In this document: in pieces, positions 55,066-62,113 of the stretch
How positions within the stretch are numbered: position 1 is the stretch's first letter
How the letters are laid out: every line of letters begins with the position of its first letter
NCBI RefSeq assembly: GCF_002939305.1
Contig: NZ_MVDI01000004.1
Span: forward strand, 1-64,000
Length of the DNA: 64,000 bases
From: Chroococcidiopsis sp. TS-821
GTDB taxonomy: Bacteria > Cyanobacteriota > Cyanobacteriia > Cyanobacteriales > Chroococcidiopsidaceae
Direction: 5' to 3'
Program-made: the position numbers and the translations under genes
Notes under the pieces: generated by a model
What the model was told of the DNA's origin: nothing
The model's input: only the letters and a program-made list of their open reading frames with translations
Databases searched by the model: none

Positions 55066-55383
55066 ATGGAGCGAGCAGTTATTAAGTTTTCATCAGAAGA
55101 TTGCGGCATTTGCCATAAAATGTCATTTTATGACCAAAAGGTAAGTGAAGAGCTAGGATTAAAGTTTATTGACGTAAAAATGCAGGATACGGCAACTTAT
55201 CGCAAGTATCGTAAGATTCTGCTAACGCAGTACCCTGATAAAGCAGAAATGGGATGGCCTACCTATCTTATCTGTGATTCCCCTGAAGGCGAATTTAAGA
55301 TTTTAGGTGAAGTCAAAGGCGGTCATCCCAAGGGAGAATTTAGAAGTAAACTACAAGCAGTGTTAGATTCTGCAACAGTTTAG
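55066..55383 (+). CDS. Thioredoxin-like protein
   Basis: The 105-aa protein has a thioredoxin-type beta-strand and CGIC active-site motif (IKFSSEDCGICHKMSFYDQ, about residues 6-24). A proline-containing WPTYLIC segment (about 64-71) fits the cis-Pro loop. It is shorter than classical thioredoxin, and the CGIC dipeptide differs from CGPC, so its redox potential should differ. It starts at ATG 55066 behind GAGGAT. The target is unknown. Confidence 0.85.
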   Translation: MERAVIKFSSEDCGICHKMSFYDQKVSEELGLKFIDVKMQDTATYRKYRKILLTQYPDKAEMGWPTYLICDSPEGEFKILGEVKGGHPKGEFRSKLQAVLDSATV

Positions 55384-59827: not shown

Positions 59828-62113
59828 CTAACCCCTATTACTAGCACTTCTGCCAACTAATTTGGCAATAGAAGCAACTAGCTGTACTGGTTCAATCGGT
59901 TTTGTGGCATGAAGTTGAAACCCTGCAGCTAAAGCGCGTTGACGGTCTTCGTCCCTCGCGTAGGCGGTTAATGCGATCGCCGGTATGTTTTTCCCGCACT
60001 CTGGTGCTAATGCCCTAATTTTTTGAATCAAACTATAACCATCTTCTTGCGGCATGCCAATATCGCTTACAAGGATATCTGGCGGTGATTGTTCGATAGC
60101 ATCGAGTGCTGCATTTACTGAGGCAACTTCTTGCACGCGTGCGCCATATTCTTCTAATACAGTCGATATATAATCGCGAATATCCGCTTCATCATCAACG
60201 ACAAGAACGCGCAATCCGGTAAGTGGGTTTGCTGTATCTATCAGCGCGGATGACGTACTAGAATTTTGTCCGGCTACTTGCTGATTCTGGATACACAGCG
60301 GCAATTCAACCGTAAAAGTAGCCCCTTGTCCTTCTCCAGCGCTAGCAGCGTAAATGCGACCGCGATGCAGTTCGACTAATTGCCGAACGATCGCCAGTCC
60401 CAAACCTAAGCCGCCATTGCCTCGGCTACTAGAGTTATCAGCTTGCCGAAATCGCTCAAACACAAATGGTAAAAAACTGGCACTGATACCTTTTCCTGTA
60501 TCGCTAACTGCAATTTGAACAACCGTACCAACTTGTTGCGATCGCACAGTAATACGCCCACCATTTGGTGTAAATTTAATCGCGTTCGATAGTAGATTCC
60601 AAATCACTTGTTGCAACCGCGCAAAATCTCCGGTAACAAGAACAGATGAAGAGGTTGGTACCTCATGAACTAACTCAATTGATTTTGTATCGGCTGCGAG
60701 TTGTACTGTTTCAATTGCCGCATTGATCACAGCGAGGATATCAACCGTATCAATATTAAGATGAATTTTGCCGCGAATAATCCGCGATATGTCAAGTAAA
60801 TCTTCGAGTAATTGTAATTGTGCTTGACCGTTGCGTTCGATTGTTTCTAAGGCACGCTCCATGGTGGTAGCATCAAACTGACGCGTCCGCAGTAATCTTG
60901 CCCAGCCTAGCATCGCATTCAGTGGCGATCGCAACTCGTGCGAGACGATGGCTAAAAATTCGTCTTTACTGCGATTGGCACTTTCGGCTTCAGCGCGTGC
61001 AGCTTGTTCGCTGGCAAGAAGGTCCGCGCGTTCTTTTTCCGCTTGCTTGCGTACGCTAATATCTCGTGCGACAACTTGTGCGGCTGGTTTTCCACTGTAA
61101 ATAAAAGGGAAAGCAGCGACTTCCACATCGACGACACTACCATCCAATCGCACAAATTTTTCTTCAATGAACGGCACAGATTTTCCTGCCTGGATTTCCT
61201 GCATTCGTTCTTGTGCGATCGCTTGACTTTCTGAATGAATAATATTTAAAACTGGTTGACCAATGAGTTGCTCTACGTTCTCAGCATTAAGTAGCTTTAC
61301 GGCTGCACTGTTAGCAAAGACAAGCTTACCTTCACATTGAACAAAAAGCGTATCCGGCATTAATTCCACTAGTTTACGATATTTTTCTTCACTTTCTCGT
61401 AAGACTTGCAAATGACGTTGACGTTCGGCAAGAATTGCTTGACGTTCTGCACGCGTTTGCCGCTCTTGTTTGACTTTAGCAGCATAATTGCGAAAAAATT
61501 CGCTTAATCTTGGTTCCTCAGCAACCAAAAATCTCAGATTGTCTAAAACTCGTTTATCGGCTTCATACGAAACTTCCGGATTAGCTTCCATCCACACGTG
61601 ACAAGTCTTGACATAGGCAACAAATGCAACTAAATGTTGATAATTACTTGCCCCTAAGATTTGACGTAGCTGGGTGCGGTAGCTTTCTGCGGCTTCGCCT
61701 TCTAGAGAGATAAATATGGCGCAAGCAAGTAAACTTTCTTCTAGTTCTGAATTTGCCGCAGGTAAAACATCTAGCTGGGAGTATGCGGCGAGTCGCTTTA
61801 AGTGCAATTCAATTTCTTCTATATTCGGTGGTGGAGTTTCCAATAGCTGCAAGACTTCTGCTGCTTTCATCCCCAACGGACGTAAAGTACAGCTATGACA
61901 AACCATGCAGTAAGGAACAGTACAGAAGCGCGACAAGTAAGCACTCAGCTTTTCCTTAAAGACCGCCGATAAGGGATTATGGATATAAGCAATAAGTGTT
62001 TGCTGCCATAAATTTTCCAACACTTGAGAGTTATGCAGTGCTGGACTAAAGAATGGCGGAAAAAAACCAAACTTATCCTCGATCTCTGCTTTAATTTGCT
62101 CGCTCGTGCGCAT
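59828..62113 (-). CDS. Hybrid histidine kinase with an AhpD-like N-terminal domain
   Basis: The 761-aa protein (ATG 62113) begins with ~210 residues like the AhpD/carboxymuconolactone-decarboxylase fold: FKEKLSAYLSRFCTVPYCMVCHSC places Cys64, Cys69, Cys72, His73 and Cys75. AhpD has CxxCxxxH; here the first Cys is displaced but Cys69...His73 fit the proton-relay pair. PAS (about 250-370), HisKA with FLAIVSHELRSPLNAMLG, HATPase (NLLSNAIKFTPNGG and GGLGLGLAIVR) and a receiver (Asp in ILVSDIGMPQEDGYS) follow. Attaching a redox domain directly to a kinase suggests a peroxide or thiol sensor, which is inference. Confidence 0.9.
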   Translation of the reverse strand: MRTSEQIKAEIEDKFGFFPPFFSPALHNSQVLENLWQQTLIAYIHNPLSAVFKEKLSAYLSRFCTVPYCMVCHSCTLRPLGMKAAEVLQLLETPPPNIEEIELHLKRLAAYSQLDVLPAANSELEESLLACAIFISLEGEAAESYRTQLRQILGASNYQHLVAFVAYVKTCHVWMEANPEVSYEADKRVLDNLRFLVAEEPRLSEFFRNYAAKVKQERQTRAERQAILAERQRHLQVLRESEEKYRKLVELMPDTLFVQCEGKLVFANSAAVKLLNAENVEQLIGQPVLNIIHSESQAIAQERMQEIQAGKSVPFIEEKFVRLDGSVVDVEVAAFPFIYSGKPAAQVVARDISVRKQAEKERADLLASEQAARAEAESANRSKDEFLAIVSHELRSPLNAMLGWARLLRTRQFDATTMERALETIERNGQAQLQLLEDLLDISRIIRGKIHLNIDTVDILAVINAAIETVQLAADTKSIELVHEVPTSSSVLVTGDFARLQQVIWNLLSNAIKFTPNGGRITVRSQQVGTVVQIAVSDTGKGISASFLPFVFERFRQADNSSSRGNGGLGLGLAIVRQLVELHRGRIYAASAGEGQGATFTVELPLCIQNQQVAGQNSSTSSALIDTANPLTGLRVLVVDDEADIRDYISTVLEEYGARVQEVASVNAALDAIEQSPPDILVSDIGMPQEDGYSLIQKIRALAPECGKNIPAIALTAYARDEDRQRALAAGFQLHATKPIEPVQLVASIAKLVGRSASNRG

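Follow-up and report, generated by a model that had tools for sequence, protein, structure and literature searches.

An AhpD-fold domain as the candidate sensory input of a cyanobacterial hybrid histidine kinase

The window analysed here is a stretch of 64,000 nucleotides of contig NZ_MVDI01000004.1 from Chroococcidiopsis sp. TS-821, a cyanobacterium with a genome assembly of 5.2 Mb. One of its genes is predicted to encode a hybrid histidine kinase with HisKA, HATPase_c and REC domains and their key motifs (Table 1), and the strings HELRSP, NLLSNA, DTGKG, GLGLGL, DDE and KP are all found in the protein. The original prediction, made from the letters of the DNA, had described this gene as an AhpD-like redox domain fused to a histidine kinase; its coordinates, strand and length, and the residues C64, C69, C72, H73 and C75, are exactly as given there, the proposed PAS-HisKA-HATPase-REC order agrees with Pfam, and the fusion to a kinase is borne out by the hybrid kinase architecture that Pfam finds. 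Many relatives of the kinase have a Met at the same start place, and the nearest named relative is Gloeocapsopsis crepidinum, in which the domain is 89% identical. The same-strand upstream gene, for a GH31 glycosidase, stays beside the kinase both here and in all but one (L090) of the six closest relatives, the other five being loci L001, L002, L073, L074 and L078. Elsewhere in the window, positions 55066-55383 of the plus strand hold a 105-aa open reading frame with a CGIC motif that looks thioredoxin-like by eye and has no Pfam match.

Table 1. Features of the hybrid histidine kinase gene, in positions of the window
Feature	Position	Strand	Details or source
Hybrid histidine kinase gene	59828..62113	minus	761 aa plus stop; ATG at 62113
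N-terminal AhpD-fold domain, residues 1-209	61487..62113	minus	AF2, Foldseek, VIA, hhalign
E54, counterpart of the AhpD relay Glu	61952..61954	minus	kept in 68/70 rows; spacing per PMC3141380 (excerpt)
C64-TVPY-C69-MV-C72-H73-S-C75 cluster	61889..61924	minus	Val66 for first Cys of AhpD CxxC
C131, conserved Cys	61721..61723	minus	36/39 domains, 62/70 rows
C171-H172, conserved pair	61598..61603	minus	38/39 each; 64/70 and 68/70 rows
Predicted continuous helix, residues 210-251, from AhpD-fold domain to PAS	61361..61486	minus	AF2 model of residues 1-360, linker survey
PAS domain, residues 243-352	61058..61387	minus	Pfam
HisKA, residues 383-445, phospho-acceptor box HELRSP at 392	60779..60967	minus	Pfam, motif
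HATPase_c, residues 495-606	60296..60631	minus	Pfam
Receiver (REC; Pfam Response_reg), residues 636-749	59867..60208	minus	Pfam

Residues 1-211, searched alone, have no Pfam match, and the only NCBIfam model that they touch is TIGR01926 (peroxidase-related enzyme), where a score of 14.5 bits (E 0.023) falls far short of the 81.8-bit cut-off. A first set of 39 domains, including that of the window, drew on 38 of 45 loci, the others being repeated or nearly identical copies; 15 of these domains touch TIGR01926 at E values up to 0.1 (best 1.2e-4) and one touches CMD at 0.096. By the curated cut-offs, the sequence of the window domain lies outside both NCBIfam TIGR01926 and Pfam PF02627. At E 1e-5 the window genome has a single CMD match, which is without the motif cysteines, and at E 0.001 it has none to TIGR01926.

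An AlphaFold2 (AF2) model of residues 1-211, built with 39 sequences, is all helical (pLDDT 94.4, pTM 0.92). In a Foldseek comparison with the PDB, the first 28 rows were AhpD, CMD, peroxidase-related or Bmp8 proteins (the debrominase Bmp8 being an AhpD relative), with probability 1.00 for the first twenty, and no match of the window domain fell below E 0.001. The best VIA-align matches, to be read with the caution that helical bundles may reach Z values of about 13 trivially, were 2pfx (Z 14.1, rmsd 3.0, 166 aligned) and 3c1l (Z 14.1, rmsd 3.2, 167 aligned), followed at Z 13.9 by 2prr, 6k40 and 2oyo. All of the first 22 rows (Z 14.1 to 4.8) were AhpD/CMD-type proteins, Bmp8 or sestrin2 (Z 7.5, rmsd 3.8, 151 aligned) and the best unrelated row stood at 4.3, so this gap, together with independent sequence evidence, removes the doubt over triviality. 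The sequence evidence includes an hhalign match of residues 4-139 to 13 CMD/peroxidase-related proteins of related genomes (probability 97.6%, E 2.6e-12), gapless across the motif, and the recovery of L124-L126 by the A1 profile, where both of the loci scanned (L125, L126) match Pfam CMD. By fold and by sequence homology, the window domain thus belongs to the AhpD-like fold superfamily (CMD/AhpD). The AhpD-like helical context of the original prediction is recovered both in the fold and in the profile comparison, and setting the predicted structure of residues 1-211 against AhpD yielded nothing to refute it. The idea that the likeness is a mere Cys-His string is ruled out by fold and profile. 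Computational support is good for the fold, for the homology and for the placement of the domain as a sensor. Among the CMD proteins encountered, that at L125:3295-4608 (plus strand) is a CMD domain fused to DUF3179.

In the window protein the active site of this enzyme fold is remodelled. The AhpD relay comprises Glu118, Cys130, His132, Cys133 and His137 in M. tuberculosis, and Glu36, Cys48, Tyr50, Cys51 and His55 in the AhpD-type protein PA0269 (PMC3141380, excerpt); in the 2prr protein it comprises Glu74, Cys86, Tyr88, Cys89 and His93 (PMC4674687, excerpt). The same spacing falls on E54, position 66, Y68, C69 and H73 of the window protein, with an exact match at four of the five relay positions. 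At position 66, the first Cys of the CxxC, the window protein has Val66, and a new cysteine, C64, lies two residues earlier; this displacement of the first Cys, which had been proposed at the outset, is seen in gapless alignments, since none of the three that cover the motif has a gap there. Of 73 segments in which position 66 is filled, 64 have Val or Ile there and a single one, the CMD protein L124, has Cys; across the 70 family rows it is never Cys. The place of C64 is often Asn in AhpD-type proteins (NGC or NQC), and in 16 TIGR01926-type proteins (of 18 matches) inspected by eye, C-x-x-C occurs in 12 and a Cys two residues before it in none. In these alignments, the window domain is without the Cys-X-X-Cys motif of catalytic AhpD enzymes and keeps the relay Glu, His/Tyr, second Cys and His at the right spacing.

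In the first set of 39 domains, C64 is present in 37, C69 in 33, C72 in 35, and H73 and C75 in 37 each; C131, C171 and H172 (Table 1), all missing from the original prediction, are also widely kept. For the larger set, removal of three frames that came from duplicate loci reduced 78 matching frames to 75 segments, and the tree has 73 rows (70 domains including the window's and three CMD proteins), both L127 pieces and the short L123 piece being left out. Because the rows were gathered with queries seeded by the window sequence, conservation is biased upwards in the counts for the 70 domains: W174 is kept in 70, E54, H73 and H172 in 68 each, C64 in 66, C171 in 64, C75 in 63, C131 in 62, C72 in 60 and C69 in 59. 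The minimum number of changes on the tree, whose bootstrap had yet to settle, is zero for W174, two each for E54, C64, H73 and H172, three for C75 and C171, five for C72 and C131, and six for C69. The most fixed residues are therefore non-Cys (W174, E54, H73 and H172), no one Cys is universal, and all six Cys occur together in 46 of 70 rows.

That cysteines are concentrated in this domain is evident from two further results. When the nine Cys positions of the window protein were shuffled, four Cys fell within 12 residues in 25 of 20,000 shuffles, so the cluster is not a product of chance; in addition, among 50 aligned relatives, all columns with at least 30% Cys (of those filled in at least 25 rows) fall in the N-terminal domain. 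Homologues lacking all of these cysteines would have counted against the original prediction: one of the 70 rows (L120, on a very long branch) is without all four of the cluster, and three more, L117-L119, are without C64 and C69 and keep C72 and C75.

C69, the retained AhpD cysteine, is the most often replaced of the six Cys, though C72 and C131 come close: it is missing in 11 of 70 rows, through at least six changes on the tree. This changeability makes peroxidase turnover look dispensable, and the retention of HisKA and HATPase_c in all five singly scanned C69-less proteins of one subgroup (L113, L114, L117, L118 and L119) fits the earlier suggestion of catalysis lost and sensing kept. In the subgroup concerned (L113, L114, L115, L117, L118 and L119, of which L115 was scanned in the pool only), C72 and C75 are kept, C64 is also lost in L117-L119, and the charged-helix look of the linker is gone, by eye. 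Another subgroup (L069 and L121-L123) keeps C64 and C69 and has lost C72, C75 and C171. Independent-pair tests for linked Cys loss rested on two or three pairs and were non-significant among the results listed. Six loci of the C69-less subgroup (L114, L115, L117-L119 and L127) have an ABC-permease-like gene, by eye, upstream on the same strand, and an OmpR-type response regulator, also by eye, lies downstream at L114.

Dozens of kinases in cyanobacteria begin with this domain, as do some cyclic-di-GMP enzymes and, on a Pseudomonas plasmid, one protein that adjoins a kinase. At E 0.001, matches were found in 20 of the 60 relatives, 54 of the 388 genomes from the order and 12 of the 386 from the phylum, in overlapping samples that each include the window's own genome; the order and phylum counts take in non-members (G161, G456 and G625, which are CMD-like in the tree as L125, L126 and L124), short pieces (G056, G432) and one genome counted by match alone (G390). 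Pfam scans covered 68 of the 75 frames, 50 in a pool and 18 singly (10 and 8). In the pooled 50, PAS was found in 50, HisKA in 43, HATPase_c in 42, REC in 28, GAF in 19, GGDEF in 5 and EAL in 1, with the qualification that contig ends truncate L102 and L105, where a lack of output domains carries no meaning; among those scanned singly, L110 is a GGDEF-EAL protein. At four loci without a REC of their own in Pfam (L085, L092, L103 and L120), a downstream same-strand ORF reads by eye as a single-REC response regulator. No other argument for a sensory role is as strong as this modular attachment to varied outputs. Two further proteins, L082:3167-7186 (plus strand) and L091:2039-6070 (minus strand), carry the AhpD-fold domain and PAS followed by Acyl_transf_3 and glycosyltransferase 2 in one open frame, an unusual output for a sensor. 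Genomes G464, G038 and G424 have 5, 4 and 4 matches (one of those in G424 being a broken piece), suggesting sensor expansion in some cyanobacteria.

Outside the cyanobacteria, one relative was found, on the Pseudomonas sp. HR96 plasmid NZ_CP139142.1, with 32% identity to the window and 50% to L122. There (L069:4959-6350) the domain ORF is followed by one in-frame stop, an HWE kinase ORF and then a response regulator; the domain and kinase ORFs are flanked by further two-component genes and by an IS66 element. The plasmid search also gave ten weaker matches, spanning 35-56% of the query; three have no gene listed, and the other seven carry CMD or peroxidase-related annotations. None of 50,697 phage records matched the domain. 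Another frame, L176:772-2370 (minus strand, 533 aa), combines by eye a glutaredoxin-like start with peroxidase-related sequence and has a TIGR01926 match.

Residues 1-360 were also modelled (pLDDT 89.2, pTM 0.65). In this model a single helix of 42 residues runs from the AhpD-fold domain into the PAS domain, and the arrangement of the two domains is uncertain at this pTM. All 50 matches listed for a fold search with this model were PAS or LOV proteins, including haem- and flavin-binding ones, so the search is uninformative on the N-terminal domain; the PAS domain may itself be a sensor. In a linker survey of 65 rows, 64 of which have a PAS start, the gap is 30 residues in 15 rows and 31-33 in 15, with gaps of 13-29, 34-75 or 209-217 in the remaining rows. 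A heptad rule for linker length was discarded, as the 64 rows have no clean period of seven.

Taken as a whole, we regard it as an even call whether residues 1-209 are a sensory input domain, derived from the AhpD/peroxidase-related fold, that provides thiol-based oxidant sensing to the kinase. Of the mechanisms considered, thiol-based oxidant sensing is the most likely, and it is favoured by the conserved relay together with a thiol cluster restricted to the N-terminal part. The oxidant, which might be hypochlorite, H2O2 or an organic hydroperoxide, would enter the old AhpD active site, where the E54-Y68-H73 relay would activate the thiol of C64 or C69; the activated thiol would be trapped by a neighbouring Cys instead of undergoing fast turnover, and the resulting shift could run along the 42-residue helix to the PAS domain and so set autophosphorylation and phosphotransfer to the kinase's own receiver. 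Several points count against an oxidant signal, including the Cys losses in two subgroups, the non-Cys nature of the most fixed residues, the PAS domain as a possible sensor, the irregular linker lengths and the lack of an oxidant-defence gene among the neighbours of the window kinase.

Because the most fixed residues are not thiols, metal or ligand sensing also has to be weighed. The C69-MV-C72-H73 string is formally CxxCH, the c-haem motif, and a metal, Fe-S or haem sensor, in which C69-x2-C72-H73-x-C75 together with C64, C131 and C171-H172 would bind a cofactor whose loss or redox change sets the kinase, might explain why six Cys and two His (H73 and H172) are conserved together. There is a precedent in the soluble cyanobacterial kinase Hik2, which senses redox via a [3Fe-4S] cluster in a GAF domain (PMC13421787, excerpt). 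However, subgroups shed different Cys (C72, C75 and C171 in L121 and L122; C69 in L113, L114, L117, L118 and L119) yet stay kinases, and we consider cofactor binding rather unlikely; the AF2 model is silent on this point, since cofactors cannot appear in such models.

Sensing of a small ligand would account for the non-Cys residues at the top of the conservation ranking: a putative pocket of E54, Y68, H73, H172 and W174 would bind a metabolite, with the thiols only shaping the pocket, much as the sestrin C-domain binds leucine, and the VIA matches include sestrin2, which has the AhpD fold and binds leucine. This proposal leaves the joint retention of all six Cys unexplained, H172 and W174 are only presumed to be near the pocket, and the relay residues are lost in the sestrin C-domain (PMC4674687, excerpt), whereas the window-domain family keeps them. 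It therefore seems to us an improbable account.

A still-working peroxidase or thiol reductase tethered to the kinase, whose turnover is the signal or a side job, is very unlikely, and by its sequence the window domain is unlikely to carry out a full peroxidase cycle. The relay Glu, Cys and His are kept in most rows (68, 59 and 68 of 70), one catalytic Cys suffices in sestrin A (PMC4674687, excerpt), and the AhpD-like RcsA degrades hypochlorous acid (PMC9751292, excerpt); against this, the first CxxC Cys is absent from every family row, the second has changed at least six times, and sestrin A shows the reverse, with the first Cys kept (PMC4674687, excerpt). Least probable is a mere dimerisation scaffold for the PAS-kinase part with PAS as the real sensor, for although AhpD-like proteins oligomerise (PMC3141380, excerpt), a long helix is predicted after the domain and PAS is present in all 50 pooled relatives, such a role leaves the relay and Cys conservation unexplained.

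Kinases were reportedly tied to H2O2 perception in Synechocystis by Kanesaki et al. in 2007, so peroxide-linked kinases as such are not new. Among the open-licence PMC papers listed in the searches, none was recognisable as a description of an AhpD-type domain on a histidine kinase, and the term AhpD is absent from the main text of a 2026 review of cyanobacterial redox signalling (PMC13421787, excerpt). One candidate carrier, RprR of Ralstonia, was ruled out, being described (excerpt) with Cache, PAS/LOV, GGDEF and EAL domains only. If the window domain reads peroxides, it would add a soluble thiol-based kinase input in cyanobacteria to the plastoquinone-reading and iron-sulfur kinases (PMC13421787, excerpt), and the sensor family may serve cells in the detection of oxidants, not in their removal. 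The window domain is apparently an uncharacterised AhpD-fold sensory domain, and its wider family apparently undescribed. There is also a gain for annotation, as the domain is unnamed in Pfam and NCBIfam at the start of dozens of kinases.

To our knowledge, animal sestrins are the sensor example known for the AhpD fold. The closest likeness in structure is to AhpD-like peroxidase-related proteins (TIGR01926; 2prr, 2pfx, 3c1l and 6k40), which share nearly the whole domain (Z about 14, 166-168 aligned) and the relay Glu, Tyr, second Cys and His at the same spacing; unlike them, the window-domain family usually has Val or Ile for the first CxxC Cys, and it has C64, four further conserved Cys and signalling domains that follow. 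E. coli YciW has been called AhpD-like with a widened Cys spacing (PMC11429811, excerpt), but its Cys form C-x5-C and it has no kinase fusion; as the closest spacing variant it was ruled out, since hhalign gives a probability of 0.2% and the C-x5-C lies in another context. Hik2 resembles the window kinase in being a soluble redox-sensing histidine kinase of cyanobacteria and differs in the GAF-borne cluster that it uses (PMC13421787, excerpt).

AhpD-fold sensors are already known from sestrins (PMC4674687 and PMC11429811, excerpts), and Sestrin2 likewise uses the AhpD fold, with an incomplete CxxC, to sense stress and nutrients. A sestrin consists of two AhpD-like domains fused together, acts on GATOR2 and keeps the first rather than the second Cys, whereas the window protein has one AhpD-fold domain followed by PAS and kinase and not two with a GATOR2-binding hinge. 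It is tentatively conceivable, if on balance doubtful, that this family is a bacterial counterpart of the sestrins, in which an AhpD enzyme fold became a general plug-in sensor, with the CxxC catalytic pair replaced by a C-x4-C thiol switch under the old Glu-Tyr-His relay. Such a sensor would respond to organic hydroperoxides or to some other oxidant and would control kinases, cyclic-di-GMP enzymes and perhaps enzymes that modify sugars of the cell envelope; its home would be chiefly the cyanobacteria, from which it would have passed at least once to a plasmid of Pseudomonas. Enzyme folds recast as sensors illustrate how signalling evolves.
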